The position numbers were made by a program, and so were the translations under genes. The notes under the pieces were generated by a model, which was not told where the DNA came from, searched no databases, and saw only the letters and a program-made list of their open reading frames with translations. Source: Aphrocallistes beatrix (Eukaryota; Porifera; Hexactinellida; Sceptrulophora; Aphrocallistidae). From it: a stretch of DNA of 64,000 nt. The stretch is taken from the NCBI GenBank assembly GCA_963281255.1, contig OY725493.1, positions 3,379,857 to 3,443,856 on the forward strand, read 5' to 3'. The first letter of the stretch is position 1. The number at the start of each line of letters is the position of its first letter. Of the stretch, positions 5,647-63,649 are shown in pieces.

Positions 5647-6120
5647 TCATTCATGATTCCTAGGTTGATAATACATAACCATGACTCTCTTCATATGATG
5701 TTGTTTGCATACATTTTCTGTTATTAGCTTTACTGTCTGTTCTACTGATTGGGTATTGCAAACTACCTTTGAAATCAAATGTTTCCTACCAATGACAGCC
5801 TTTTCCTTAATACTAATCGGGATACCCGAAATTAGTGGCGGAACTGTAACATTAGTTGTATTCTCAATCAATAAAATTCCAGTATGTGTCAGCTTGAAAA
5901 TTAATTAGGGGAGGTATAAATTTTCTGATAATTTCATTAGATCCTGATGAATTAATTTCCTTAGCTTCAATAACACTTTGCAGAGCAAGTTTCCGAACAG
6001 ACAAATCATCATCTACTAGAGCACTCAAAATAATATTTTCAGGATGTCCATATGTGCATTATGTTGTATAACTGCTTTGACAATTTTGAATTCTTTCACA
6101 TTCAGATTGTGACGCATAGT
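5647..6120 (-). pseudogene. Fragment of an uncharacterised, possibly element-borne protein
   Basis: Minus-strand frames encode, in order, a 'ALVDDDLSVRKLALQSVIEA' block (about 5950-6040) and, after a frame change, a block with 'VPPLISGIPI' and 'CNTQSVEQTVKLITE'. The Cys-His/Asn-Thr-Gln-Ser/Ala-Val-Glu..Val-Lys-Leu-(V/I)-Thr-Glu pattern resembles a hypothetical protein I associate with invertebrate genomes, but I cannot name a function. Frameshifts and the lack of a start suggest a decayed fragment within the intron. Confidence 0.4.
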
Positions 6121-6399
6121 TGGATAGGATAGAATAGATTACTTGCTCCATGATAACAGTAGAGCTGAAACCTTGAAATAAAACCAGGATGGTGCATATA
6201 TTTTGATTATAATAGAACTTATTCAACAGACGGATGTAGAGTAGAGACGTACAACCGTAAGATCCGGTTCACCTATGTCAACCAATGTGCAATAGACAAT
6301 GTTCCCGGGTTAAGGAATGCAAACTTCTCATCCAAATATTCACGTCCCTCGAACATTGCCCGCGACATCATGTAAAGATATTTCTGGTCACAGCTCGGC

Positions 6400-6940
6400 C
6401 ATAGCCTACTCTAATAATGCCTCACAGTAAATAACCAAGGATGTGGTAATAGCCGACTGAATTAATAGACGATTAGCGTAAAATCGTTAACCATGTAGGA
6501 TATACATTAAGAATGTATTACAAGCATATATAAACATGGCATCAAAGTATATATATCCGCTGTCAAAATTTCGATTAGTCATCATATCATTGCGCAACAT
6601 GTCATTTTAAGCACGATTTTGGCAATTTTCTAAACTGTTTTAAGCCTACTTCTAAATGTTATCAAGGTAGAATTTTTGTGTAAAGCTAATATTAGTACAA
6701 GTTCATTTGAAAAATTTAGAATTTGTCAATGGAATGTTGTTACATTCCTACGTTGCTATGGTATAGCATTTTGTTCTGTTTGAGCCATATCCTCCAAACT
6801 CTAAGAACTAGGTCTTCAAATTTGATCGTATTTGATAGGCAATTGGCTACTTCCTATTAGGTAATAATACAATTTAAACTTCTAAATTCACAGACTATAG
6901 AGTTATGCGACAATTTAGTGTTTTAGTCACATTCTTAAAA
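6400..6940 (+). mobile_element. P-like foldback element, left arm only
   Basis: It starts with CATAGCCTACT like the element at 47778 and follows its left arm (tatataaacatggcatcaaag, gattgcgcaacatg, cctattaggtaataatacaa). The right arm and second terminus are not found nearby, so one half is missing. Confidence 0.6.
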
Positions 6941-7439
6941 TCAACCCATAACTCAAAACTGGGAACGGCCCACCTTAGGAGGAGCCCCCGCGCCCCCCTC
7001 CCCAAACACCACTGATCTCTACTCATCTCATAGCATCTGTATTTCCCATTGGGTTGTGGAGGGAGGGAATGCTATATTATTGTCTGGTTACCCCACTCGT
7101 AGAATTCCAATTCGACTTCTTCCTTAGGGCTAGTCGAATTATAAATTGTTCTTCATTGCTACACCAGACAATAACATATCTTGAATAGCCCCTTTAATGG
7201 AATTTGGCTGGCGAGATCATTGTTCGCATGCGTGAAACACTTGTAGGTATTTAATGCAAAACTACTCATACCCAAGCAAGCTAAGTGATTTTTTTTGATG
7301 TGTATTTTGCCAAGTGGTGCTAAGACTAAGTGTGTAACTAAATCTCGACTTGAGCTACTATTTCGTATAGCTAGAGCGTATTCGTCCTAAGATAGAACAG
7401 CTGATTCAAAATATGCAGCTGATACAGCCCTGTGTCTCC
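6941..7439. other. Gene-free; contains a short imperfect inverted repeat
   Basis: At 7069-7173 the motif 'attattgtctggt' is followed about 80 bp later by its inverse 'accagacaataac', with arms near 'gtcgaatt' also inverted. This may be a small foldback remnant. No gene is seen. Confidence 0.35.
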
Positions 7440-9740
7440 CTAATGCTTCCTCAGATTACCTATGGTAGAACCGCTTGAAAGTTTGGGCGTTTGACCAATC
7501 CAACTTTGAGGATTATGTCTGTTGGTACTTACTCCTGAGGCTGCTGCTTTTGAGGAGGAAACATACTTTGTTGAGTGCGCTTTGAATATTTTGTGTCAAT
7601 ATCTGCGAGCTTAAGGGCATCTTTGAGCCATTGTCCAACAGTGGATGTCGACATTGGCTTGTAGGATTTAACGACATCTATAAGTAGGGCCTGATGTCAT
7701 TAAGTGCATTTATAGGACATACTTTCGGATTCTCACGGAATATATGAACATGTGTTGACTTCATTATTTTCACATTCCATGATTTCTTAGTGCCAGATAT
7801 GTGAAAGACTATTCAGTCAGGGAAGGTTTTCTTATGGGTATGGAAGGCATCCAAAGCGGCTAGTTCTGAGCATCGAGAAGCCGTAGTAAGTGCTAATAAG
7901 GTGACGGCTTTATAAGCAAGGTGTTGAGTGATGAGCACCACATGTGCTCTAAGTATGTTAGCAGAAAATTGACGTCCCAAGTTATGGTACTTGTATATCG
8001 AGGACTTTTAGTTTTGATGTTATTCATGCATTTTAGTAAACGTTACACTATTGTGTTTTTCCCTATCACTGAGCCCTGTGTCGTCTTCGGGATTTTGGAT
8101 ATGGCAGATCGGAACGTGGCCATCCAGTTGGTGGAGTTACGAGATTCAAACTATTTCATCAGGAAAGATAGTAAATCGTTTAGACCTGGGTTGGGATAGT
8201 TTGTCTTGTTTTCTGAGCACCGATACTCCCACTTACTCCAGGTTGAGTCTTAATATTTTAATGTTCTTTTACTCCAGCTACAGCATGTGAGGTTGCTGGC
8301 GTTTTTGGTATACTCCGTGCTATCAATTGGTACCTAAATGACGCATGCCAGAGTGTTTGTTTCTTGTCTGCTACTAAGGGGTGATGATTGCCTTCCGGGT
8401 CTCTGTGGAAGTCTGGTACCTGAGGCAGTTTTGTGAGTGGTTGGACTAGGATCTTCAGAAGGACCGGTCACCATGGCCTGGAGGTGCAATGAGGGACAAT
8501 CAAAATGGCTCGCAGAACCTTCTCCCTGATTTGTTTCGTCAACACCCTCCAGAACAGAATCATAGGGGAGAAGAGATATGGGCGTTCCAGTTGACTCCAA
8601 AATTGACTCCAACCATGGACAAATGCATTTACTGTTATCGCTTCTGAGTCTGGTCTCCAGCTCATGAAGTTGGGCAGCTGTGTGTTTAGCCGTGAGGCGA
8701 AGAGGTCTATTTTGGGAGGCTGGTTAATATTTGTTAAAATCTGATCGAACATTATTGGGAATATTTTCCAGTCGCTCCAATCCCGATTTGCCTTTGTGGA
8801 GAGCTTGGGCCTTATCCACTAACAAATTTAAGTTTTGCTTAACTTGAAAACTTAAGTATAACTTAAGCAAAATCTAAATATTTGCTTAACTTTAAGCAAA
8901 AACTAAGTATTGCTTAACTTAAGAAACAGCTAAGGATTTGCTTGCTTTCAAATGTCAAGAATTATCCAAATACTGTAATCACTATCAAGTTAAAATTATA
9001 TGACCAATAGTCCTATTGAGCAGTTATAAATTTCTCAAGGAATATTCTAGTTTAGTTGGATTTCATGGCTTCTGCATCTCAATCACTCTTCGAAAACGTT
9101 TGTATACTAATAATATTCTAGCAATTATTCGCCAACTTTCATTTTGAATACCACAATGATAGAATTGACAAAATACCCCTAGCGCATCAATGATTTATAC
9201 AACAGAAATAAATCAAACTAGCTACAAGATTTTATACTAATCTATATAGAGAAACACGATTTACATGCGAGATTCTTTAGAGTTAAATCAACCCCAGGCA
9301 TGACTTAAGTTAAAGCTAAATATTTTTTTAAGTTTAAGTTAAGCTAAGTAAAACTTAAGTTAAGAAGTTTAGTAAATAAGGCCCCTGGTCTGTTGCAACA
9401 TTCTCCTTACCAGGAATATGCTCTGCCGTTAGCAGAATGTTGTTCTCCATGCAGTGTTTGTGGAGATGTAGGAATAGGTAGCAAAAGACTCTGAGAGTGA
9501 GTGCCCCCGAGTTTGTTTACATATCGTTCGCAGTACTTTGGTCGGTCTGGATTAGGAAGTAGGAGTTGGGGATGCTCCAGTACGTTTATATTCATGGTTC
9601 TCTCCTCTGGTGGCCACAGGCCGGAGACTTCTCTATTCGTACACACTACTCCCCATCCTGTGAGGGTGGCATCTGTTGCCTGTTGCTATCTCTGCCCCTC
9701 TTATGAATGGGTGATGAATTCCATATTTTTTCGCTGAACA
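7440..9740 (-). pseudogene. DIRS-like retrotransposon remnant (RNase H to tyrosine recombinase)
   Basis: Minus-strand pieces lie in DIRS order. An RNase H domain at about 9740-9400 has 'TDATLTGWG', 'SGLWPPEERTMNINVLE' and 'GGTHSQS', then 'PGKENVATDQ'. The region after RNase H (8752-8468) has 'PPKIDLFASRLNTQLPNF' and 'SWRPDSEA'. A tyrosine recombinase tail (about 7690-7440) has 'STVGQWLKDALKLADIDT' and 'AHSTKYVSSSKAAASGVS'. Repeated frameshifts separate these blocks and the reverse transcriptase core is missing, so it is dead. The recombinase HxxR box reads His-Ser-Thr-Lys, so the catalytic Arg is lost. A palindromic element interrupts it at 8807-9385. DIRS elements integrate by the recombinase rather than a DDE integrase; that is family knowledge. 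Confidence 0.75.
8807..9385. mobile_element. Palindromic non-autonomous element inside the DIRS remnant
   Basis: Its ends are GGGCCTTATCCACTAAC and the inverse of GGGGCCTTATTTACTAAAC. Sub-terminal zones are dense in 'cttaacttaag'-type palindromic words. It lies between the DIRS 'ENVATDQ' and 'KLSTKANRDW' segments, which otherwise belong together. The superfamily is uncertain, because the target duplication is too short to call. Confidence 0.7.
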
Positions 9741-11958: not shown

Positions 11959-12178
11959 ACTATATGTATACACACATACACACACATTAATCGAGTTTTA
12001 ATAGTAAGGATATATATACAGGGTGCGGCATAAGTTCTGTCCAATTTTTCAAGTATTCGTAGTTCTTGATAGCTTTACAGTATAACAATATTTAACTACC
12101 CATAAGATACTCTACTGTATACTTTTCAATGTCAATTAGTGCCTAGTTCTGTAGTTAGCTCTATACTGATATATTGCA

Positions 12179-13516
12179 ATGACAGAGATACGCTCTACTA
12201 TTATTAGCCTATTCATGGCTGGAAATTCGAATGGTGAAATTTTTAGAATTCTGAAAAACCAAAATGTTGGGAGGAGGCTTATCCATCGCACTATTCAGAG
12301 GTTCAAAGATACAGGGACTGTACAAGACAGACCCAGAACTGGACGTTCACGTATCATTCGGACCAGAAATCTGAAAGAGAAATTGCGCAAGAGAATTGCC
12401 CGAAATCCTCGGCGTTCCATCAGAAAAATGGCTCAAGATTTCCAAATAAGTGATAGATCACTAAGGAGAGTGATTCACGATGATCTGGGCATTAAGGCAC
12501 TTAGAAGAAAAAAGGTGCAAATGCTTACCACAGCTATGCAGCAAAAACGGGTCGATAGAAGCAGAGCACTGTTATCGCGTGCCACACCGGTTTTGAACAA
12601 TATTTTATTCTCTGACGAAAAATTATTCACGATCGAGCAAGCTTCCAACTCCCAAAACGACAGAATCCTTTCACCCAGTGTTAAAGACACCCGAAAATCT
12701 TAGATTTGTTCCTCGATGCCAAAAGCAAGCTTCTGTGATGGCAGAGGCGGCGCCAAGACTCCGCCACTGGGGGGGCACCTTGGGGGCACAAATCATTTCC
12801 AGTGGGGCACCAACATTTTTGGGTACAGATTACCCGCCAATGAGAACTAATAGGTATATACTACATATATATATATATACACATATTATGTTATTTTCTT
12901 ACACTTACTGTTATTTTATTACACTAAAATATTGGTGTACACTATTGAATTAGAGAAACCTGTTTATCAATATAATAGAAGCCTAGTAAAATAGTGCGAA
13001 GGCATGGACAAATGAATGACGCATGTATTCCTGTCGGAATTGGACCCCTGGCCCCCCCTGGCGCCGCCACTGTGTGATGGTCTGGGCGGGAATTTCCGCT
13101 GATTCACGAACGGACCTCATTTTTGTCCCGGAAGGGATGAAAATAAATGCAAAAACTTACCGAGAACTTATTCTAGATGCGGAAGTCAAAAACGCAGGTT
13201 CGAGACTTTTTAATAATAACAATTGGACCTTCCAGCAAGATGGCGCACCGGCACACACCGCTAATATCACTCAGCAATGGTTTCGGGACCAAAAAATCGC
13301 CGCCATCAAGCCCGGACCTTAACCCCATGGACTATTGTGTGTGGTCCATTCTAGAGGAGAAGCCCTGTGCTAAATCTCATACCAATATCAGGTCTCTGAA
13401 AGCTTCACTTCAACGTGAATGGCAAAAACCCCCAGGACCTCTTGCGGCGTTCCTTTCATCAGTTTCCATCACGTCTTAAGGCTGTAATTCAAAAGAAAGG
13501 AGGGTATATTGAATAA
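12179..13516 (+). pseudogene. maT-like (Tc1/mariner) transposase, interrupted
   Basis: It starts at ATG 12179 with an N-terminal helix-turn-helix ('ISLFMAGNSNGEIFRIL'), then 'RPRTGRSR' and a second basic HTH. The catalytic region is marked by 'LFSDEKLFT' (first Asp, about 12610), 'QQDGAPAHT' (second Asp, about 13240) and 'SSPDLNPMDY' (third acidic position, Asp, about 13305). A DD..D triad with 'PDLNPMDY' suits the maT-like branch. Lesions are a frameshift near 12690, the hAT insertion at 12742-13072, and a short deletion with frameshift near 13290-13305. Beyond the insertion the protein resumes at 'VWAGISADSRTD'. The C-terminus ends 'KGGYIE' with a stop at 13514. The product would be inactive. 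Confidence 0.85.
12742..13072. mobile_element. hAT-type MITE nested in the transposase
   Basis: Its ends are CAGAGGCGGCGCCA and the inverse of CAGTGGCGGCGCCA (one mismatch in 14). An exact 8-bp target duplication, TGTGATGG, lies at 12734-12741 and 13073-13080. Removing the element and one duplication restores the local reading frame of the host transposase. The 8-bp duplication and CAG..CTG ends indicate hAT. It is 331 bp and has no coding capacity. Confidence 0.9.
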
Positions 13517-35492: not shown

Positions 35493-36820
35493 CTTAGGTC
35501 ATTTCAAAAGTACTGATCACCCCCCACCAATTTGATATTAAGCAACGACTGATGTGTTATTTAATTACATATACTCGAAATAGTGTCCCTTGACGCGAAT
35601 ACACTCCTTTAGACGGTCTACCCAGCAGCGAATGTCTTTTTATACTCCGTCTGGGGATTTCAGGTACATACTTATGAATGGCGAATCCGATCTCCATTCG
35701 ACTAGTGAACTCCTTGCCAGAGAGATGACTTTTCAGCTTGGAAAACAACCAGAAGTCACAAGGACTTAGGTCAGGGGAATGGGGAGGGTGATTCAGTGTT
35801 TGTATCCCTATATCCTCGATGTGTGCGGCGACTTGTTTAGTTTTATGGCTACTGGCATTATCATGTAGAAGTTTAATTCCACGAGGACCAGTTCTCGGCC
35901 GACGCTATGTGTATTGTTTACCGACTTCTGCGAGCACATGAGTGCAATAAAAGTCTCCAGTAACATTCTGGACCATCGGAGCGCAAACTTGAGCAACTGG
36001 CCCGTAGGAGTCAAAATGCAATTGCGTACATTACCTACTTGGCAAGGAAATCTGGACGCGGTTTTTTAGGTCGGGGTTCGCCCGGATGCAGCCAACACTT
36101 AGATTTTTCCTTGGATTTAGGTTGTGAATAATAAATCCAAGTTTCATCTCTGGTTACTATCTCATAGAGTCGCCTTGCATCAAATCTTTCGTAATGTAGA
36201 ATATTTTCACAGCATTCTATCCTCTGTTTCATCTGGGCCTGACAGCAAATACGGCACCCGCCGAGCGCAAACCTTCCTTACTCCGAGATCTTCCTTCAGA
36301 ATGCGGTAAATACTTCCCGTTAAGATATTCATATACTTAGAAATCTCTTCAATAGAGCAGTAAGGGTCATTTCGAAGAAATTCACCAACTAACTCAATTG
36401 AGGGTTCACAGGTTGCAGGTTTAGGCCTACCAGTCCGAGGCTCATCTTCAATGCTGTCTCTTTCCTCTCTGAATAGTTCAGCCCATCTTCTAACCGTGGA
36501 ATAAGCAAGTACTTGATCTCCACAAACTTCCACGAGATCATTGTGGATGTTTCTGTTCGAATCTTTTAGCAGTGAACGAAACTTGATATACACCCTTTGC
36601 TCTTGCTCAATAATTGACGATTTTGAAGCCATAAATGTATGTAGCCAAAACTGACAAGATTGAAATGATGATTGTAAGAAAAATACTTATGCTATCTTAA
36701 AATTTCTTTTAGATATTAGGAGAGAATGGGTAATGCTATCTGGATTATATTAATTGGTGCATTAGATATACAATAGCTGTCAAAAATCAATAGTGATCAT
36801 TACTTTTGAAATGACCTAAG
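35493..36820 (-). mobile_element. Mariner transposon
   Basis: Its ends are CTTAGGTCATTTCAAAAGTA and the same inverted, with TA at 35491-35492 and 36821-36822. Length 1328 bp. It interrupts the linker word 'cgagttttagtaaggat' that is intact elsewhere in the window, which confirms the boundaries. Confidence 0.9.
35557..36632 (-). pseudogene. Mariner (DD34D-type) transposase
   Basis: ATG at 36632; N-terminal HTH ('IEQEQRVYIKFRSLL', 'RRWAELFREERDSIEDEPRT') and a second HTH to about 36210. The catalytic blocks are 'RDETWIYY' (first Asp), 'LLHDNASSH' (second Asp, about 35870) and 'HSPDLSPCDFWLFSK' (third Asp, about 35735). Frame changes occur near 36220, 36030 and 35880, and the sequence after SPDLSPCD shifts frame again. 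It is a relative of the 17975-19311 element, but with different terminal repeats. Confidence 0.85.
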
Positions 36821-41260: not shown

Positions 41261-41361
41261 CAGTAGGACGTCAGTTATCCGAACGGGTTGGGACCGCGGG
41301 GGTTCGGATAACTGAAGTTGTTATGTGATTCTATAGAAAAGTTGGTCAGTAGTACTAAGTA

Positions 41362-42000
41362 CAGTAGACCCTCGATTATCCGACACCTCGATTATCCGAA
41401 CAGTGTGTTCGAGTACCACTCATTTTATCAAATACTTTTCAATCGAATTTGTGAAAATGATGTGTTCGGATAACTGAAATGATGTGTTCGGATAACTGAA
41501 ATGATGTGTTCGGATAACTGAAATGATGTGTTCGGATAACTGAAATGATGTGTTCGGATAACTGAAATATGTGTTCGGATAACTGAAATAATGTGTTCGG
41601 ATAACTGAAATGGTGTGTTCGGATAACTGAAATAATGTGTGCGGATAACTGAAATGATGTGTTCGGATAACTGAAATGATGTGTTCGGATAACTGAAATG
41701 ATGTGTTCGGATAACTGAAATGGTGTGTTCGGATAACTGAAATATGAGTTCGGATAACTGAAATAATGTTTAATAAATCAATTCCTTAAAAATGTATGTT
41801 CCAAAACTGTCAATTTGTTTGGCTATACATGCGTGTAAGTAGTATTCAAATCATAATACGTTCTTTAATAACATCTAAGTTGGTACATGTGCATTTAAGA
41901 GCGTAAAATACGTATTTCGCTTATCCGAACGATTTCACTTATCCGAACACCAATCTTTGAACTAACAAACGGAGGTGTTCGGATAACCGAGGGTGTACTG
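41362..42000. mobile_element. Pogo-like element nested in the 41261 element
   Basis: Its ends are CAGTAGACCCTCGATTATCC and the inverse of CAGTACACCCTCGGTTATCC, with TA at 41360-41361 and 42001-42002. The paralog at 52058 shows the unoccupied site (..actaag-TA-gtcataatg..), proving insertion at a TA. The interior is a 22-bp minisatellite. Confidence 0.9.
41458..41764. repeat. 22-bp minisatellite (14 units) of a terminal-repeat motif
   Basis: Fourteen tandem units of 'gatgtgttcggataactgaaat', with small variants (gat/aat/ggt, two units short by 2 bp). The core 'ttcggataac' is the same as the terminal-repeat core of the surrounding pogo-like elements. Confidence 0.95.
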
Positions 42001-42209
42001 TAGTCATAATGATGAATATGGATAAAATACTTATTAGCGTATGTAGGTATCATCAATAGTATATAAAATGATGGCAGTGTAATAATTTCAATTATCAACT
42101 CAGGATGCATCATTTATACATTTATTATATTTTTGTTTGGTCAACCAAGGGGTTCGGATAACTGAAGTGTTCGGATAACTAAAGTTCGGATAATTGACGT
42201 TCTACTGTA

Positions 42210-53152: not shown

Positions 53153-54186
53153 CTAGCGTCGCAGGCCAGCATGGATCGTGAATCGGATTAGTACATATTT
53201 TAGCCCGATTTTAGTGTGTATGATGTGAATATGTTCCTCAATATTATTCATTGGAATAGAATTCGTCAAATGTTCTACCTCTAGAATAAATATAGGAGGT
53301 ATTTTGAAAAAACTTAGGGATATAGGGACAGTGTTAACATTTGGATCCCGACATTTAAGACAAGTAAAACTTGAATTAATTTGATGATCAATTGTCTTTT
53401 GACACTTCTCTTTGAATCCAACCGACGTTAAGCAGTTTTTTTCAGATTCAGTACAGCAGCTCGAACATTGAAATATGATAATGTACATGTCTGAACTGAG
53501 AGACAATCCGGTTAAGAGATGCACCATCTTCACTTCATAGCCTAAGAAGTTACACCGTGAATAAATGACTTTTATGCCAAGTTTAGGAGACCACCAGAAA
53601 CGTAACTTGTAGAAATCTTGTGATTGAATCAAAGATAACATTTAAGAGTTGGAGGTGGAAAAAAACTTGCTAATGTAAATGCTGTAAATATTCTTCGTGC
53701 ATGCAAACTTAACAAAGTAATGAAATTGTCTACTGGACAAGTTTTCGTTAATTCAATACCATCATAGTGACAGCCCCAGGATACACACATATTTTCCATT
53801 GAATAATTTGTGATTAACTCCCTCACAACTGGAGGTAGAACTTTGGTTGAATAGTTCATGCTTTCTTGAGACTATCTTATAGAAAATTCAAAATCCTCAG
53901 TAGTGTACTGATATTGAGGGATCTTGATGTTTTTGCTTTCCAAGTCTTACTATGTTAATATATTTGAGATTTCGAATGATATTTCTAATTTAAAACCTTC
54001 ATTCTCTCGTTTGAATGTAGATGGGTAATTTTCTAATCTCCAATCGATCAAATCTCGAATAGACATATCTTGCCTCAAGTGGAGTTCATTATGAAGATCA
54101 GAGAGTGGAGTATTTAGTTTGATTGAAACAATAATTCTGAATTTCATTCTGAAAAGTTGATCTAGAATAATTTTTCTAATTTGTGT
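53153..54186 (-). pseudogene. Downstream half of an ORF interrupted by the 8.8-kb element (USP-like?)
   Basis: From 54186 the minus strand continues the frame that enters the big element at 62982. It reads 'MKFRIIVSIKLNTPLSDLHN' and 'IRDLIDWRLENYPSTF' to a stop/possible donor (GTAAGA) near 53945. A segment at 53871-53629 ('TCPVDNFITLLSLH') and one at 53641-53153 follow. The last has two zinc-ribbon-like Cys pairs ('CSSC' and 'CLKC') and ends 'YVLIRFTIHAG', which recalls the C-terminal half of ubiquitin-specific proteases (ribbon finger, then the strand before the catalytic His). The stop comes three residues after Gly, before any catalytic His. The USP link is tentative. The gene may itself belong to a mobile element. 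Confidence 0.5.
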
Positions 54187-55022
54187 ACGAGTGTTAAGTT
54201 GGCTTAGTATTCGACTGAGCCCACTTGAAGTGTAAATGTGAGAACTTTCCCAATGTCCGATTTTGATAAATGGACCGACGTTTATGAAAATGTATTAAAA
54301 TTCTGTTTGTTTTTTTACCTTTTAGTTGATAAAATTTTATAGTCGAACCGAGCACAGCCTCAACCAATAATTTTAGTAGTTCCTCTCAAAATTATAATTC
54401 AAGAGCTTGCACCCATATTTCTGAATAACCGACGTTTATGCAGTTTAAATTTAATAAGAAAATTCCAAATTTCTTGGGAGTTATAGGTTGGCAAAGTTGG
54501 CATTTAGTTAAGTTCGGACGTTTACCCCTCCTGATAGTTACCAGAGTGAGCATGCTTTAAGCCTTGATTTTTAAATCTATTCAAGATGTAATTCAGCTGG
54601 ATGTATTATTATTTGATAGAATAGACACGGACTTTTTATGAGACGTGATTTGAATTGTCTAAATTCATTAGTTTCTTAGGACTACCTCATCAAAGTTCAC
54701 TAAAAATCCGAAATTTTGGATGCTGACTTCTGGAGACTTTTCCTACATTTTTATCTAGCTTTCAGGGTTGATACTCCATTAATGTATTCTTTTTTACCTT
54801 ATTTCTTATTTTTAATAATAAAAACATAGGGCTGCTAATCGATTTTTTGAAATATTCCATTTTTAATCCATCCATATTTGAGCATCTTCCCCAATAGGAA
54901 ATTGTATTACAGCAACACTATACTGTATACAGAGAAGTATTGTGTAAAGATAAGACTATTAGCTAAAGTGATACAATGACTGTCTTTCTTGCTTGAAGTT
55001 ATAGTTCCAATAATGTTACTTA
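54187..55022. repeat. Left terminal inverted repeat of the 8.8-kb element
   Basis: Reverse complement of 62127-62981, with only small differences. The largest is a stretch of about 24 bp present at 62869-62892 and absent here. High similarity between arms suggests recent insertion or gene conversion. Confidence 0.9.
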
Positions 55023-55239
55023 ACACATTTTTAAAGTCCGTGTGATTTCTAAAATTAGTTTTTATTAGATCTGTGTGCTTAATATAAATGACTTCGAAAA
55101 ATACGTGAGTACTACTCATATAAGATTAAATAAATCCATAGAGAGTATTTAATACAATTCTTGACTTAAAGCTTTAGAGATTAAGTTGTATTATTTATTC
55201 ATACATGCTATCGAAAATTACTTACTGTAATGCTCTAAT

Positions 55240-55390
55240 GACATACTTGCCAAATGTCCCTTTTTTGGCGGGACCTAGTCTTCTAATTTCCACAAGTGTA
55301 CCGCTTTTTTTAAATTATTTGTATAATATTTTCCAAATGCGTCTCGCCATGTCCCACGAAATTAAACGCTGCGTCCCGCTTTTATTATAG
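55240..55390 (+). repeat. Dispersed 'tgtcccg' repeat, second copy
   Basis: Matches 45490-45650 in inverse orientation ('catacttgccaaatgtccc', 'ttggcgggac', 'aacgctgcgtcccgc'). It lies just inside the left terminal repeat of the 8.8-kb element. Confidence 0.6.
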
Positions 55391-55399
55391 CTCATGTTT

Positions 55400-56790
55400 A
55401 CATGTACGTATGTAATGGTATTCCTAATTAATCCAAGACATGAGTACCTTCAACCAAATTTGATCAAGGTTAAATATACGTATTTTGAATCCTTAATTAA
55501 GAAATCGGAATCTTTTAAAGTATACCTAATATACTAAATATATATGATTGCATTCGACCGCGATATCTTTATAATTATGAAGGTTTCAAGCTTAAATAGG
55601 ATTTAATGTTATCATTTGTAGAAAATAATAATGTTCCCCAATCTCTTTAAGCCATTCGAGCTTTTAAGAAGGACAATGATCCCAAATACCATAATACTTC
55701 GCTTTTTGGGGTCTCGGATCACAGTTTGGGAAACATTCCAAAGGAGAATAGAATAAAGTATATAATTTTAATGTTTGTAATCTACAAAGAATATTACACA
55801 GTAATGTGGCCAGGTACGAGCTCACTTCCCACTGGAGGGTTAATTCGAAGGCAATGCAACGAGTTACTAGAACCAGTTTTTATCATTGTTTTACTAGTAG
55901 CACCTAAGGATAGTGAGACTCCTGGCTCTAACATACAGAATAGAACAAATAATACATACAAAATACATAATAAAACAATAAAAATATATTATAAAAAGAA
56001 CATAAATTTATTTTCCAAAAATGTAAAATATATAATATAAATCAGAACAAAAAATATTGAAAAGAAGCACAAAATATCTTTCAAATTAGACCAACTCCTG
56101 ATATGAAACTTCTGATGGTACTGAGGTTATATTCATTGGAATTGCTTTCAATAGAAAATTTTATTTTATAATCTTGTTTATAGTGGGCGTTGTTATGTTA
56201 GAATCCTCGACAATTTAATATAGTTATTATACTTTGTGAATTAGGATTTGAGTCAGCCAGAATCCTTTTACACGTAATAAATGTTAATGTTTACTCTTCT
56301 GCAACAAATGAATTGAGTATATATATTTTTGCCATTACTAAGCAAAGTTTATGGGGTTTATGGGGCTTAGAAAAATTATTAAACTCCCTCTAATCTTTAC
56401 TCCGATCCATAACTGTGGAAGGCTATCAGAAGTACGCCTTTTCCAATTTTGAGCCCCAAACCGGACAAATCCCATTATAAATCTGCACTTGGGGAAGCCT
56501 ACCTTGAGCAACCTATACTGGTATAAATATCGTAATGTGTAGGTGTGTTGGATGTCTACAAGTGAACACTGATATAGAGACGGTCTAGAAATTTCCATAC
56601 ACCAGTATCTGTATAGACATGCTAGAATCATTGTTCACGTATGGCAGGGTTGGGTTCAAATACGTATTTATATTTATATTTGTATTTGTATTTGTATTTA
56701 TATTTGTATTTGTTAGTATATGTGGTTAGACCGCATAAAATAAATTATTACATTTATTTTATGCAGCCTAACCAGATCAATTACTATATA
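55400..56790. other. Non-coding 3' part of the 8.8-kb element
   Basis: The open frames at 55726-56040 and 56338-56631 show no recognisable family. 56655-56720 is a (TATTTG/TATTTA)n hexamer run. Confidence 0.4.
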
Positions 56791-56792
56791 TT

Positions 56793-57495
56793 TTATTTTA
56801 AATTTAACTCTGATACAGGCTCATAGTGATCGCGTGTATGTCTTATATATAATGATCCGGCCTCATTAGCAGGTGGTAATGTCATTACCTTTTCCAAACT
56901 TGCACCATTACCTGAAAATACCATCCATTTATTTCCCATATCACTAGTGAATACCCAAATATCTGTCTTAAATAATAGTACAACAGCAAATAGTTCTAAA
57001 TCTGTAACCATATCTTATTTACCTGCATTTTAGACTTATTAATATAGTTTTTAATACACCGATAATTAATGACTGTTTTCGGAAATTTACATCCAATGAA
57101 TTTCTCACAAACGTGAGCTAACTTACCTATCATGTTATTTGTTATAAGCAATCTCATTTCATGATAATAATCAATAGTACCAGTAATTAAATAAGAGAGA
57201 GATGAAAATAGACAATTCCCATCCTTCGGTACTTGGTAAGTGGATATAGGAACTAATTCATTCAAATTAAATATTTTGTTGTTACTGTTTTCATGTGTAG
57301 TAGTTATTGATTTCACAAAGTTAAGCCCAAATTCATTGCATATATTAGTTTTACCAAGACTTGACAAAGGTTTGAATGGTGGTAATAAGAAGTCTAAATT
57401 AGCGACTGCTAAAACGTCTAAGTCAGTAAGTATTTCAATATCAGCTTGAGGAAGAACACTTGTGTCTCAAGAGATTCAGCAATTTTAGCTTTCTT
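56793..57495 (-). pseudogene. OTU-type cysteine protease domain at the transposase C-terminus
   Basis: The minus-strand frame, after a shift at about 57465, reads '..LTDLDVLAVANLDFLLPP' and then 'VPKDGNCLFSSLSYLITG', the OTU catalytic Asp-Gly-Asn-Cys box. 'EMRLLITNNM' follows. After a one-base frameshift near 57008-57014 the domain continues 'TDLELFAVVLLF' and closes with 'DHYEPV', which holds the catalytic His. Order and spacing match OTU domains, which cleave ubiquitin or ubiquitin-like chains in cellular proteins. Because the reading frame continues from the transposase through repairable single-base shifts, the domain was probably part of the same polypeptide. Confidence 0.75.
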
Positions 57496-59415
57496 AACCC
57501 CTGAATTCACTATAGATGATGCCCTCTTCTTTTTATTTGGAGCAGAAAATAAACCAACCTTAAAACTATCGAATACTCTTTCTATTTTTTTACTAGGAAC
57601 TGATTTAATGTAACTCCGCCTAAGTTTTTTTCTTTTCCCCCATTCTTCCTTACATTCCTCCTCGTTAATTACTTCATACTGCCTCTTTTTAGACTTGAAC
57701 ACTTTATGTGCCAAGGGCTGAAATGCAAATTAGAAGTTGCTAATCTATCATCAATATGAGTAAATATCGTACGAATAAAGTCTCCAGCTTTAATATTAGT
57801 TTCAGATTTGAAAATTGAATATTTTACAATTCTAAACCAATTTTCAATAATGGCGTTACTATCAGTTGTGCTATCATTAATCTTGCTTAAAATGATTCCT
57901 GTCCAAAAGGGAAGCAAAGGAAAATAATAAGTCATTAAATAGTCAAGAAATTCTGGATAATAAAATGCATTTTTATTCTTTTTAATAATATTTTTTTCAT
58001 TTTGAGGTGCTAACTTAATTATATTTAGGCATGTATTAAAAATATTATCAAAATATCTTCCAAAAGGCGATTTTTTCTTGTATGTTTCACAAATTTCCCT
58101 CGTTATCGATTCTTCATCAAGTGTTTCAGGATGGAAACTGTCTATTTTCATCTCTCCCTTTATTAACCCCTCTAAATTAACTAGACCATCTCCTACATAA
58201 GAAGAACTCACTTCGCTGTATAATAAATAACAAAGAGACTTAAAAACAAGTTTTATTTCCTCCATATTATTACTTTTAACCATTGTACCAATAGCATGTA
58301 ATATTACTTTTTTAATTTTATTTTCTATTTTAAATTTTTTATCTATATTATAACTTATACGATGCATAATATGTGCAGAACAAAGATGAAGGACTGTACT
58401 AAAGCTAAATTCAGGTTTGACATTATTTACTACTTCCCAACACTTATCAAGGTAGCTTAAAACATTTATTTTGTTAAATGAAATGCATGCACTGTGCATC
58501 ATGGCCCAACTATAATCCAATTCGATTTGATCGATCTTTATTTCTCTATTCATTATTAATTTACTATTTAACACCCATTTATTTAAAAAATGAGTAATTT
58601 CAACTGCACCATGATCGCTACTGATCATTTCAGCAATAGGTACAGGACTAGTGCGGTATTCGGGGTGCTGCAATGTTAGCGCATAGTAAAATATTCTATT
58701 CGAACAAAATGGCGGTTTAAATATTAAAGATCCAGTCGCATCCAAATTCAGAACAATTTTTTGTTTTTTTAAAAGCTTTAAAACATCTATCTGTTTTTGT
58801 GAATATAAATGACTGACATATGGTTCTTGTGCGATATATTGTATATATCCAGGGATCAAACCTTCAAGGTAGGAGTAAGCGGAAATATTTTTGGGTGGCA
58901 ATAATATCTAGCATATCATTGTTTGAAAATCTAGTTTTTGACTTAAATTCTGACTTAATTTGACGTAAACAATTTTGTGATTTTAGATTATTAAAATTAC
59001 CATTATTAAATTCTAAAAAATTATCTACACTATTAAACTGCTTATGAAAAGTATTCGTAGTAGTATTTTGCATTAAATTCTCCCCCATCTTTTGTCTTTC
59101 ACTACCAGATACATGACGAGCATAGTTCATACCATCTGAGTGTTCTGAAGAAAAAATACCTTCACACCTATAATGCACTGGTATATTGCTCGTACTATCA
59201 TAATCTAGTGATGTAACATCATCTTTAATTGTGAAATAAAAACTGTAACAATTAGAGAATTTACAAACTGCAGAGGCTTGAAAAAATGAAGATTTTACTT
59301 TTCGACTAGGATTTTTCTGAATCCAATAATTTTTAAACTTAAGTACACAAAAAGAATTTACCATGGAAAATTTATTTGCAATTAAATTAGTCCAGTTTCT
59401 GTTAAGGTTGGTGTT
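57496..59415 (-). pseudogene. MULE-like DDE transposase (decayed)
   Basis: The ORF runs from about 59415 (ATG at 'MGNTNLNRNW'). An N-terminal segment with Cys/His ('FCVLKFKNYW', 'AVCKFSNCYSF', 'HYRCEGIF') is probably a zinc-binding DNA-binding region. The catalytic region has 'IVLNLDATGSLIF' (first Asp, about 58740), 'IELDYSWAMMHS' (second Asp) and 'AIIENWFRIVK' (Glu). 'ISSDH', 'FLNKW' and 'HLCSAHIMHRIS' lie between. Frame changes at about 58885 and 57712 break it, and a basic Lys-Arg tail (57700-57480) leads into the OTU domain. The arrangement fits MULE-type transposases, but I assign the superfamily by pattern only. Confidence 0.65.
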
Positions 59416-59454
59416 TCCCATGCGAAACTTGTTTTTTATTATAAATGTGCCCAA

Positions 59455-60095
59455 ATTGCTTTTTTATCATTTTTAGATCCTTATAGGGGTTCTAAAAAAT
59501 AATCCCGATTTTTATAACTCCAGCCCCAATAATTCGCCACTTTGAGCCACTTGTATCACCTGGTGTCGCTCTAAAACGACACATTTCAAATGCGAAATGT
59601 CCCACAGCTATAACCTCTTTCAACAGTATCAGATCATCTTTTTAATGCTGAATTCATGCTCAGAACTAGATTTCCAGCAATTTGATATATATATTGGCCA
59701 TATTTGGAAACATTTTTGTTTGACCGTGCCTAGCAACGGCCAGAAATTTTTTAACATTCCTGACCGTTGCTAGGAAAAGGCAACCAAAAATATTTCCAAA
59801 TATGGTCAATATATATATCAAATTGCTGGAAATTTAGTGCTGAGTACGAATTCAGTATTCAAATAACGACCTGGCATAGTCAAATAAAGTTATAGGTATG
59901 GGATTTCGGCGGAAACTGTCGGACATGGTCATTTTTGGGCCCCCAGTGATAACTGTCAACTTTTTCACACTTTTGAAGGTGACATGATGTTAAAATATTT
60001 GATATGTCATATTTTGAAGTTAAGTATTACTATAAGTTGTTGATTTAGGATGTTTTGATGTTATTTATTATCAGAATACAGTAAAAACAAATGGA
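59455..60095. repeat. Repeat F, a palindrome and repeat E inside the big element
   Basis: 59455-59590 matches 39950-40075 (repeat F). 59640-59830 is a palindrome ('atatttggaaacatttttg' against its inverse) with 'cctagcaacggcc' in the arms. 59818-60095 matches 47222-47510 (repeat E). This stretch separates the two minus-strand coding blocks. Confidence 0.65.
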
Positions 60096-60596
60096 AATCA
60101 AGCCTTTCCGAAGAAAATTGCTTTGTAGCCAGTATTTACCACTTAAAAAAATCAATTTACAAAGGAGGAATCTCTAGTTACAAAGGTCGTAGAGTTAAAA
60201 ACTCGACGGTTTTAGAAAGATCTCGTCACGTAGAACAAAATGATAGAGACAGATTTTTGATATTCTACTTTAGAAAAAAGTTAAAATATTTTTCCTTACG
60301 AAAATCTGCCTCTAAATTTTTATAAACGAAATTTGAAAGAAAAAATTATTTGGGTTAAAATTGAAAATTCTATTCCTATTATTTTCTTTATTCAACCATT
60401 TTGTGCAAGAATAATTGAGTAAAAGAGGCATAAGGCATTAAAGTTTCCTTGAATGTCCTCTATAAATTAGGTCATTTGGGGAAAAAAAAAATTTTCTCTT
60501 ACTTCTTGGGCTCCCGAAAAGTGTATTTTTGCAGATAACTCATCGAGAATAGTTTCCACCAAAAATTTCAGGATAAAATAATGAAAACTTTTAAAG

Positions 60597-61885
60597 TTAG
60601 TTCTGGAAGGAAACACCAACCTTAAGTCGACCTCTACCTTCGACATCTGTATAGTAAATGCTGTTCCATTCTCCATTATCAAGATAAAATTCACCAGTAA
60701 ATTGGTCATGGCTGTCAATAGATCTTATTGATTCCTGCAAAGATATTGAATCGTTGCAGGAATCAATAAGATCTATTAAAAATTCTTCATTTCCCAATAA
60801 GGGGATAGGCTTATTATGAGGACAAGAAACATCTAAAAACAAATCTTTCTTCTCTAATTTTACTAAACATTCGGTATATAGAGATCTCAAAACCTCAACA
60901 CCATGATTATGAAATTCTTTTCTTAATTTTTGTATCCAAGTAACGAATTCTGAAAGCATGTCACTACTCAACAAAACGTAATTTTTATCAAACAAATTAT
61001 CTATTAATATACACCTTAACTCATTGTTTAACTGTAATGTAGATGCGATCCACATTACTACCAATGTACTTCGTTCTATCAGTTTATCACTAAATCTATT
61101 TAATATATTAGATGTGAAGTCCTCACAACAATGAACTAGATTTATATCAGTAAATTGAACAAACCCTGGAATAATATCTAGTAGTTCATTATAACCATGG
61201 AAAATACAACCATCAACCCACAGTTTAGCTTCACAATTAATAAAAACGTGGTATAATGGCTTTCCCATGCTATATTCAGAATCAAGATCAAAACCCTGAA
61301 ATTTCTCTTTTAGTTCAGTATATACATCCAATTCAGATGCAACAGAGGAGTAAACAATTAACAAATTATCATCGTATAAATCGTTCTCGATCGACTCCCA
61401 ACTAATTCACTAGAAAATAACTTAGCTGTCGAATCATTCTCTTGGATCCTAACACAAATATCCCTCAGGACGATTGAGGATATTAGGGAAGTTCTCATTT
61501 CATTAGAAAGCAAATCCATACGAATACATACCTCAAGTCTTTCATCATTTAATTCTTTGGAGATATCATTAGTCTTAGTGGGGGAGAGGTGGCGCTCCAA
61601 AATTTCCCGAATATTATGTGAGTTATTTTTCCACTTGAGATAAAGTTTATGTCTCAAACCTTGTCTGTTCCGACCATAAATTGATTTGGACAGTTCACTC
61701 CATAATGAGTCCCCACGGAAAGCAAATTTCTTTTGCAGTGCATCAAAAGTAGATGATTTCTCAGTCAAGACACTGACAAGCTTGGAAAGATCTTTAGGGA
61801 GATCTAAAACATTTTCAGATCAAAAATTATCTAAAGTCTCCAAAACAGTCCATCTTTCACTTACCTTTGTATGAATGTTCCATAA
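60597..61885 (-). pseudogene. Unrecognised two-exon protein of the 8.8-kb element
   Basis: ATG at 61885 opens a six-residue exon 1 ('MEHSYK', 61885-61867). A GTAAGT donor and TGTTTTAG acceptor bound a 63-bp intron (61804-61866), and exon 2 continues in frame ('DLPKDLSKLVSVLTEKSS'). A frame change near 61395 links it to a 255-residue stretch ending 'LKVGVSFQN', stop at 60597. There is no recognised domain. Segments such as 'RQGLRHKLYLKWKNN' are basic and could bind DNA, while 'DQFTGEFYLDNGEWNS' is acidic. Position and strand make it a companion gene of the transposase, transcribed first. Function unknown. Confidence 0.6.
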
Positions 61886-62126
61886 ATTTGTTAAGTGGTG
61901 ATGTGATAATGATAAAAAAATATCAAAAAAAGAAAAACGATTTCAGATCAGATGTTAGTAAAAGGTTAATATAATAAATAAGATAGTTCGTAAATATGAG
62001 CGATTTCTCAAAGTTTCGAAATGAGTGCATTATATACCTACGTAATTCTGCACTGTAAAACATCGATGTTGTAATCAGTAGTCAGGACCACCTGTCAAGT
62101 ATTCTAATTATAAGATTAAAAGCAAA

Positions 62127-62981
62127 GTAACATTATTGGAACTATAACTTCAAGCAAGAAAGACAGTCATTGTATCACTTTAGCTAATAGTCTTATCTTT
62201 ACACAATACTTCTCTGTATACAGTATAGTGTTGCTGTAATACAATTTCCTATTGGGGAAGATGCTCAAATATGGATGGATTAAAAATGGAATATTTCAAA
62301 AAATCGATTAGCAGCCCTATGTTTTTATTATTAAAAATAAGAAATAAGGTAAAAAAGAATACATTAATGGAGTATCAACCCTGAAAGCTAGATAAAAATG
62401 TAGGAAAAGTCTCCAGAAGTCAGCATCCAAAATTTCGGATTTTTAGTGAACTTTGATGAGGTAGTCCTAAGAAACTAATGAATTTAGACAATTCAAATCA
62501 CGTCTCATAAAAAGTCCGTGTCTATTCTATCAAATAATAATACATCCAGCTGAATTACATCTTGAATAGATTTAAAAATCAAGGCTTAAAGCATGCTCAC
62601 TCTGGTAACTATCAGGAGGGGTAAACGTCCGAACTTAACTAAATGCCAACTTTGCCAACCTATAACTCCCAAGAAATTTGGAATTTTCTTATTAAATTTA
62701 AACTGCATAAACGTCGGTTATTCAGAAATATGGGTGCAAGCTCTTGAATTATAATTTTGAGAGGAACTACTAAAATTATTGGTTGAGGCTGTGCTCGGTT
62801 CGACTATAAAATTTTATCAACTAAAAGGTAAAAAAACAAACAGAATTTTAATACATTTTCATAAACGTCGGTTCCTTCTCTTTCCAATCACACCGAATTT
62901 ATCAAAATCGGACATTAGGAAAGTTCTCAAATTTACACTTCAAGTGTGCTCAGTCGAATACTAAGCCAACTTAACACTCGT
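62127..62981. repeat. Right terminal inverted repeat of the 8.8-kb element
   Basis: Inverse of 54187-55022 from 'taacattattggaac' to 'cttaacactcgt'. It contains the probable promoter side of the minus-strand genes. Confidence 0.9.
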
Positions 62982-63649
62982 CATTTGTGTAGGGTCTATA
63001 ATCTTTTCAAATACTGTCTCTTCTGCTCCAATTGAGGCTAGAAAAGCTGATGATTTGCTAATGTAAATGCCATCGGGTCCATTAGATATTTCAGGAGTAT
63101 CCAGATGGCTGTGATTACTAGGATGAAAAGATGGCTGTGATTACTAGGATGAAAAGATGGCTCTGGAATAGAAGTACAAAGTGATTGTTTGCACAAATTT
63201 ACTTTAGTACTATTGACTAATTGCAGCTTGTTGTTACGAGATATTACAGCAGTACTAGGATTCCCTTGGCCTGAAATTTGCCACCTTCCTTTTTCTGATA
63301 AATATTCTCCATCAACACCTCATCATCTTCTTCAAGCTTTGCAAATGATTTGGGGTTAAGTTTCTTATCATACTGTTTCTTCATCGAACATTTAGAATGT
63401 GTTAAGGCGTGTCCAGCTGTTTGTTGAGCAAGTCATTTGAGTTGTTTCTATATAATCGACAAGTTCTTCTACATCGTCGTCTCTTCCCCATTCATCATTT
63501 ATTAAATCTTCTAAATCGGGATATAATGATGCTAATATTTCTGCCTCAATTGGCAAACGTGGTTTCCTGCAACTATTCATCAATTCAAATGCCGATGATT
63601 TTGTTGTAGTCCTGGGTCTAATGTTTAGAGAAAACGTGATCCCTTCCAA
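62982..63649 (-). pseudogene. Upstream half of the ORF interrupted by the 8.8-kb element
   Basis: The minus-strand frame pieces begin with 'RPRTTTKSSAFELMNSCRKP' and an acidic 'LASLYPDLEDLINDEW' region. A frame change (about 63425) gives 'HSKCSMKKQYDKKLNPK' and 'EEDDEVLMENIYQKK'. Another (about 63290) gives 'GRWQISGQGNPSTAVISR', and then 'GPDGIYISKSSAFLASIG' to the insertion point. A 26-bp tandem duplication at 63104-63129/63130-63155 adds a further shift. Downstream it joins 54186 in frame. Family not recognised. Confidence 0.55.
63104..63155. repeat. 26-bp tandem duplication in a pseudogene
   Basis: Two perfect copies of the unit starting 'gatggctgtgattactagg'. Not a multiple of three, so it shifts the reading frame of the interrupted ORF. 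Confidence 0.95.

Follow-up and report, generated by a model that had tools for sequence, protein, structure and literature searches.

Does the transposon-like locus at positions 54187-62981 of the Aphrocallistes beatrix DNA analysed here (contig OY725493.1, positions 3,379,857 to 3,443,856; this whole 64,000-nucleotide stretch is called the window) belong to a lineage in which a transposase and a ubiquitin protease are made as one protein, and what would such a protease do for a mobile element? The locus has the skeleton of a DNA transposon, with its coding region on the minus strand, a DDE-type transposase first and then an OTU (ovarian tumour) protease domain. A reading made from the letters alone (the sequence-only reading) had proposed that the two parts are fused, that the element is a Mutator-like element (MULE) whose captured partner is of the OTU type, and that this domain may strip ubiquitin from the transposase or from host repair factors. 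In the current study, relatives of the element were sought in the A. beatrix assembly (100.5 Mb, 28 contigs), from which the loci with L numbers were taken. Intact members of the lineage are predicted to encode both parts in one protein, and one subfamily of them has transposed recently.

The closest relatives of the window element, L029 and L030, share 67-68% DNA identity with it over the coding stretch searched, and each contains one open frame of 1272 codons; further relatives are related at 35-40% protein identity. The OTU family PF02338 (curated cut-off, 23.3 bits) was recognised at residues 1129-1231 of both 1272-codon proteins (P0001, E-value 7.6e-7, 30.1 bits; P0002, E-value 1.8e-7, 32.2 bits), and no Pfam family besides OTU was found in either. 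Recognition by Pfam was obtained on these intact relatives only, not on the pieces in the window. Among the matches listed in a genome-wide protein search for the fusion (52 rows, with 36 of 740 candidates scored), an unbroken frame crossed the DDE core and the OTU domain at 19 places or more, in several subfamilies, on many contigs, and in the same order. These frames had lengths of 1272 (two copies), 1257 (one), 1102 (three), 1095 (two), 1044 (one), or 1041 codons (five), with single frames of 1037, 1006, 883, 782, and 703 codons; the shortest lacked the N-terminal part, and those of 1006 and 883 codons stopped before the closing His of the OTU domain. By hand count, the OTU domain was covered by the match or followed it closely on the same strand in 29 of the 31 listed rows that spanned the core from its first Asp to its Glu. 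At C1:3683669 and C12:3761136, no OTU match was among those listed (150 of 263 OTU candidates scored), and absence there is not established. All 11 members that were aligned were listed with OTU in a Pfam scan (listing limit, E-value of 10; best, 1e-9). Moreover, a profile search against the Protein Data Bank (PDB) matched the deubiquitinases OTUD1 (E-value 3e-4) and OTUD3 (E-value 0.0067). Taken together, these data indicate that a DDE-type transposase and an OTU domain are encoded as one predicted protein in intact members. The proposed fusion at the C-terminus of the transposase was thus upheld: the search for intact copies that the sequence-only reading had called for yielded the two 1272-codon relatives and others, which could be translated through both parts, and neither a stop or boundary consistently separating transposase from OTU nor a lack of OTU matches was encountered. 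The profile search on the combined frame that it had also suggested succeeded for OTU in P0001 and P0002, but gave no MULE or other transposase match in the 11 members.

Evidence for mobility was provided by the 1041-codon subfamily, represented by L038. Its termini start with ATGGGTGTGAAGTTAGC, which resembles ACGAGTGTGAAGTTGGC of L029, and its terminal inverted repeats (TIRs; 815-1900 and 5810-7475 of the locus) are about 1.1 kb long and consist of a 185-bp unit repeated in tandem (5.6 and 8.8 times), a Foldback-like form. When the genome was searched for L038-type termini with at most two mismatches, 37 matches were found, compared with none for the reversed control, and 28 of them made 14 facing pairs. 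Identical 9-mers flanked 12 of these 14 pairs, and none of 182 off-pair comparisons came within one mismatch. Among the five 1041-codon copies, four had their own 9-bp duplication; the copy at C6:4038108 did not. Because 12 of the 14 terminus pairs carry perfect 9-bp duplications, we conclude that the 1041-codon subfamily transposed recently, with 9-bp target duplications. In the window's own subfamily, whose terminus pattern was matched exactly at 12 places in the genome (reversed control, none), five pairs were compared. The duplication was 9 bp and exact at L029, 8 bp and exact at L031 and at L069 (where it sits two bases off one end), and lacking at L030. The window element itself is flanked by AATTTGTGT on the left (54178-54186) and CATTTGTGT on the right (62982-62990), identical at eight of nine positions. 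The target duplication described earlier is therefore present, but it measures 9 bp with one mismatch rather than 8 bp, the 8 bp being its identical part, and other copies support the 9-bp length. L069 (C10:3247806-3247997) is a 192-bp miniature bearing the termini of the window family, a derivative resembling a miniature inverted-repeat transposable element.

The alignment of 11 members, three of which have little or nothing of the N-terminal part, was used to examine conservation. Intact members share the same domain order. An N-terminal region with a C-x4-C...H motif comes first, and then the DDE core, in which C-x2-H follows the second Asp and the Glu is preceded by a long insertion; a basic linker connects this core to the OTU domain. 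Invariant in all 11 rows were the Asp of DATGS/DSTGS, the Asp of E-x-D-Y/F-SWA, the C-x2-H (CSAH), and the Glu of ENW/ESW; the OTU Asp, Cys, and His were likewise invariant in all 11, at about 35% identity. In the window core the two Asp residues are 75 amino acids apart, and the second Asp and the Glu 224. The upstream C-x4-C...H motif was kept in all eight rows that reach that region, and the following His was Lys in two of them. When six subfamilies were compared, mean pairwise identity was 0.449 for the DDE core, 0.435 for OTU, and 0.207 for the linker. Between the window and L029, the ratio of nonsynonymous to synonymous change (dN/dS) was 0.083 in the core (367 codons) and 0.162 in the OTU piece (123 codons), and three deeper pairs gave 0.22-0.28 for OTU; dS was saturated throughout (1.8-3.1), and the deeper core pairs yielded no dN/dS estimate. 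Purifying selection on both halves is supported by these values, but more weakly than the fusion itself. The core tree has five starred splits, and all but one of them are found in the OTU tree as well; the exception joins L037 to L038 (98/98) and is contradicted by the OTU domains at 65/70 only. Given that both halves are similarly conserved and that four of five core splits recur, the fusion is most likely old and precedes the radiation of the subfamilies. An extra stretch of about 200 amino acids (residues about 125-330 of L029, L030, and L032) is confined to the members of 1257-1272 codons.

To which superfamily the transposase belongs is less clear. MULEs typically make target duplications of 9 bp (range, 8-11 bp), have long TIRs that can also be Foldback-like, and carry C-x2-H after the second Asp and an insertion before the Glu. 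The lineage resembles them in its 9-bp duplications (12 of 14 pairs in the 1041-codon subfamily), in its long TIRs (835 and 857 bp in the window, about 1.1 kb in L038), and, at the level of motifs, in the order D..D..C-x2-H..E in 11 of 11 rows. Of the traits that the sequence-only reading had relied on in calling the element a MULE, these stood. Nevertheless, no member of the 11 matched a Pfam transposase family, including PF10551, PF00872, and FLYWCH, at E-values up to 10 (a range in which HMMER filters discard most matches above 0.1), although 121 places in this genome are matched by the Pfam MULE model at E-values up to 0.001. When the core profile was compared with seven MULEs of the same genome, both Asp motifs fell into register; the score of 19.7 was equalled or exceeded by 14 of 200 column shuffles, and the reversed control scored 20.5. 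Unconstrained alignments of the two halves of the core, a split chosen post hoc, placed first Asp on first Asp, second on second, and Glu on Glu, and shuffles scored as high in 4 of 150 cases for one half and 2 of 150 for the other. A PDB profile search with the core alone returned seven matches (best E-value, 0.38), an NCBIfam scan of three family proteins gave one chance-level match, and none of 24 pattern matches in viral contigs was confirmed as a relative. Because the Pfam transposase matches are lacking in all 11 members and the whole-core profile score is not significant, the MULE label is only partly supported: the lineage appears to behave like a MULE, its membership is unproven, and an independent DDE lineage is possible. 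The strongest competing explanation is that the core represents a separate DDE superfamily, which shares with MULEs only the duplication length, the long TIRs, and the C-x2-H motif; the Pfam and whole-core results speak for it, but the half-core alignments and the combination of 9-bp duplications with long Foldback-like TIRs, both MULE traits, keep it at somewhat under an even chance in our estimate. Two other identities were rejected. Ginger1 is contradicted by the lack of any integrase match in a Pfam scan of the 11 members and by duplications of 9 bp rather than 4 bp; for a Helitron, neither a Rep nor a PIF1-like helicase domain was found in the same scan.

Our proposal for how the fusion works is as follows. 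The core would act as an RNase-H-type transposase that joins the element ends to a 9-bp staggered cut, the OTU domain would strip ubiquitin either off its own transposase or off host proteins present at the insertion complex, and this deubiquitination would lengthen the life of the transposase or steer repair in favour of the element. With moderate confidence, we therefore regard these elements as a mobile lineage in which a DDE transposase is fused to an OTU protease that may edit ubiquitin tags on the transposase or on host proteins. Because nearly every copy has the domain fused in cis, where its own carrier would be the first target, the main benefit would most likely be a longer-lived transposase or insertion complex. 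The function suggested by the sequence-only reading is plausible and lies near proposals already in the literature.

Several observations weigh against this proposal. The window copy is dead and encodes nothing intact, because its coding region is divided into seven pieces over three frames and is split by a nested insertion. The DDE assignment is inferred from motif order, without a significant profile or fold match, and a single-sequence structure prediction of the window core was uninformative (pLDDT 44). Target duplications were lacking in two of the 14 facing pairs (C6:4038108 and C7:2749861) as well as at L030. The residue two positions after the closing His of the OTU domain is Glu in six of 11 rows and Gln in five, and since OTU proteases usually have Asp or Asn there, some of the subfamilies could have a weak triad. 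Finally, four near-identical pairs, which differ by 4 to 14 changes, gave dN/dS values of 0.17 to 0.77 for OTU and thus no sign of strong constraint at that short scale, so that selection is argued from the deep comparisons alone.

The remaining explanations concern the role of the OTU domain and the reality of the fusion. The domain could act mainly in trans on host silencing or repair factors, with the fusion merely delivering it to the nucleus. Repair factors are the target suggested for transposon proteases in the available text of an earlier report (PMC2836005), and a Helitron-type protein and integrase-type elements of this genome also carry OTU, but a domain that acts only in trans need not be fused, and yet OTU follows the core in nearly all of the listed rows that span it; we consider such a role rather unlikely. 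Less probable still is a non-catalytic or non-ubiquitin module, that is, a binding arm, or a domain aimed at another ubiquitin-like target, kept for structure or targeting. The Gln found after the closing His in five rows would suit such a module, and transposon OTU domains are described as lacking an activity test in the available part of PMC9741609. However, the DGNC box and the closing His do not vary among the 11 aligned rows despite such low identity, as would be expected if the domain is an active protease and not a scaffold; the closing His is missing, though, from two further open frames, those of 1006 and 883 codons. That the continuous frames are chance read-through or an assembly artefact, and the two parts normally separate genes, as the frame changes between the parts in the window copy might suggest, is very improbable in view of at least 19 unbroken frames across subfamilies and contigs and of the 1041-codon copies, four of five of which sit between their own 9-bp duplications. 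Read-through of two genes was accordingly rejected as the source of the fusion on the strength of those frames, and so was a host OTU gene caught in one copy, the domain being common to all 11 aligned members.

The origin of the OTU module was also examined. The module comprises about 200 amino acids, including a pre-OTU stretch with the invariant Gln and Cys of WQxxxC. It was compared by blastp with seven proteins of the same genome (L003, L006, L072, L074, the Helitron-type L071, and two host OTU proteins), so that the E-values refer to a tiny set. Against L003, L006, L072, and L074, E-values ranged from 8e-11 to 4e-28, and most alignments covered about 190 residues; similarity to L071 was weak (0.001 to 6e-9), and with the two host proteins (1e-5 to 1.5) mostly the OTU core alone aligned. 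Among the seven proteins compared, the module of the transposase therefore appears closest to that of integrase-type elements. Of these, L006 and L074 show, on inspection by eye, a GPY/F-like stretch ahead of the OTU domain, without a Pfam match, and an rve match lies upstream of L074, with L103 (E-value 2e-7, 31.7 bits, just below the cut-off of 32.6); L003 and L072 were classed as integrase-type from OTU similarity only. A retroelement RNase H piece (E-value 1e-24) about 2.4 kb upstream of the L103/L074 rve match, with a weaker second integrase-like piece between them, may belong to another element. With these features, the integrase-type OTU elements may be either Ginger1- or Gypsy-like. 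In an OTU tree that included the host proteins, branches were long and support was weak, and a grouping of transposase and integrase-type OTU domains was not rejected (p-AU 0.24). These comparisons suggest that the module was exchanged between two transposon superfamilies or came from a common source, a choice that the OTU tree does not resolve. We hold only tentatively the broader view that this is a new DDE lineage unrecognised by Pfam, in which OTU is a standard, long-conserved half, and that an exchange of the module took place with integrase-type elements (Ginger1- or Gypsy-like) unrelated to it.

OTU domains are widespread in this genome. At least 149 places were found at E-values up to 0.001 (150 of 263 candidates scored), which is far more than host deubiquitinases would give. 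Among the places looked at, two (L001 and L002) were host-gene-like, presumably OTUD5-like and OTUD7-like proteins, respectively, and the others resembled mobile elements. L071 (C2:4502500-4506000) is a Helitron-type protein with a PIF1 helicase match and a C-terminal OTU domain, so that at least three kinds of element in the genome carry OTU. A different ubiquitin-related domain was observed in two MULE transposases. L053 (847-2451; C9:2278346-2279950) is a single frame of 535 amino acids ending in a C3HC4 RING finger (Pfam E-value 6e-10), and L054 (897-2531; C1:9739902-9741506) has 545 amino acids, a terminal C3HC4 RING (E-value 4e-14), and a FLYWCH match below the cut-off. The RING of these two loci is a predicted ubiquitin-ligase-type domain on a transposase. 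A protein search for their relatives gave 87 rows; several matched via the RING region at 30-54% identity, and most contained stops.

Combinations of this kind are not new. Ginger1 elements, whose DDE transposase carries OTU or Ulp1 at its C-terminus, have a Gypsy-type integrase with GPY/F and make 4-bp CCGG/CCGT duplications (PMC2836005). The present lineage is like Ginger1 in joining a DDE transposase to a C-terminal OTU in one protein and in being a cut-and-paste element with TIRs, but differs in its non-integrase core and 9-bp duplications (PMC2836005). The same-genome integrase-type OTU elements share the module of about 200 amino acids, including the pre-OTU stretch, whereas the integrase is theirs only. 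MuDR-6_HM of Hydra (Cnidaria; MULE group 14) is tabulated with one open reading frame and the "Ovarian Tumour Gene" (Table 1 of PMC6446971), in an entry that gives neither TIR nor duplication. By that table description, a MULE listed with OTU in one open reading frame (PMC6446971), it resembles the present lineage, which is possibly the MuDR-6_HM group or a separate one. Foldback-like Mutator elements such as Tm1, and Phantom as described in citing papers, share 9-bp duplications and Foldback-like termini (PMC3169594). Tm1, however, encodes a 496-amino-acid protein that matches the Pfam FLYWCH and MULE models, neither of which the present family matches, and the word OTU is absent from the main text of that paper (PMC3169594). 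Helitrons and Helentrons with OTU or VTD deubiquitinases likewise combine a transposon protein with a ubiquitin-protease domain, but theirs are rolling-circle enzymes (PMC9741609); in the present genome, L071 has an OTU with only weak similarity to that of the lineage. In the open-licence literature as far as it was available, no OTU-bearing cut-and-paste transposase was found beyond Ginger1 and the Hydra MULE, nor any test of what a ubiquitin-protease domain does for a cut-and-paste transposase. The fusion inferred by the sequence-only reading is thus real, but OTU is not a new partner: as the sources consulted describe it, a DDE-OTU fusion has been known since 2010 from Ginger1 (PMC2836005) and is tabulated for one cnidarian MULE group (PMC6446971), and the present lineage is a variant with another core.

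The window copy was mapped as follows. The left TIR starts with ACGAGTGT and occupies 54187-55021 (plus strand, 835 bp); the right TIR occupies 62125-62981 (minus strand, 857 bp). Their identity is 97.1% across 857 columns, with 3 mismatches and two gap openings, in agreement with the inverted repeats of about 840 bp noted earlier. When the intact relative P0001 was aligned by tblastn, the coding region was recovered as seven collinear minus-strand pieces in three frames, from 61807 to 56802. Its N-terminal end, which contains SLWSELSKSIYGRNR, lies at 61358-61819 and is a putative 5' end, either a start codon or a 5' exon. It is followed by the N-terminal part of the protein, with the extra region of about 200 amino acids (60597-61406, the last codons entering a nested insertion), and by the pre-core region with the C-x4-C...H motif, a candidate DNA-binding zinc site (58864-59463; the upstream end of its reading frame likewise enters the insertion). 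The DDE-type core (DATGS, DYSWA, CSAH, SNAIIENW) occupies 57735-58850 within one open frame, 57669-58907, so that the minus-strand Asp/Asp/Glu blocks of the sequence-only reading were borne out. The transposase end and a basic linker (KVFKSKKR...) follow at 57418-57729 in another frame. The OTU domain is divided over two frames: the pre-OTU region and the N-terminal OTU part with the DGNC box lie at 56996-57466 in a second frame, and the C-terminal part (TDLELF ... IRHTRDHYEP), with the catalytic-type His of its closing HYEP, lies at 56793-57014 in its own frame; neither part alone has a Pfam match. Among 10 window proteins scanned, none of the seven element pieces reached a Pfam cut-off, nor did the last OTU piece. 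The OTU domain had looked complete; its DGNC box and closing His are indeed there, but in separate frames that Pfam does not recognise. The frame changes had likewise been seen correctly, but not the nested insertion at 59406-60621, which also breaks the coding region. This insertion has TTAA on each side (59402-60625 overall) and inverted ends GGTTGGTGTTTCC, and is lacking in the sister copy L031. Because at least 12 further copies of its leftmost 100 bp exist in the genome at 98-100% identity, it represents a young TTAA-specific family that is probably non-autonomous. Elsewhere in the window, a tandem-like repeat block at 41356-42002 is 92-98% similar to L031 1587-2069 and represents another repeat family. 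A helix-turn-helix fragment at 12170-12703 (plus strand) matches a Tc3/IS630-type transposase model and a fragment at 36207-36686 (minus strand) matches the Mos1-type HTH_48, both below the curated cut-offs; on the basis of these helix-turn-helix matches, both are probably Tc1/mariner remains.

For this sponge and its transposons, the results mean that Pfam has no model for a recently mobile transposase lineage that numbers tens of copies in this one genome. If the proposed role of the OTU domain is correct, mobile elements would carry their own tool for editing the protein-tagging system of the host. If the module was indeed exchanged, transposon superfamilies would be passing a ubiquitin protease among themselves as a portable unit, in a genome in which a RING finger, the opposing ubiquitin-ligase type of domain, is found on another MULE lineage. 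Because young copies with perfect duplications and unbroken fusion frames exist, the need of a transposase for its own deubiquitinase is open to experiment.

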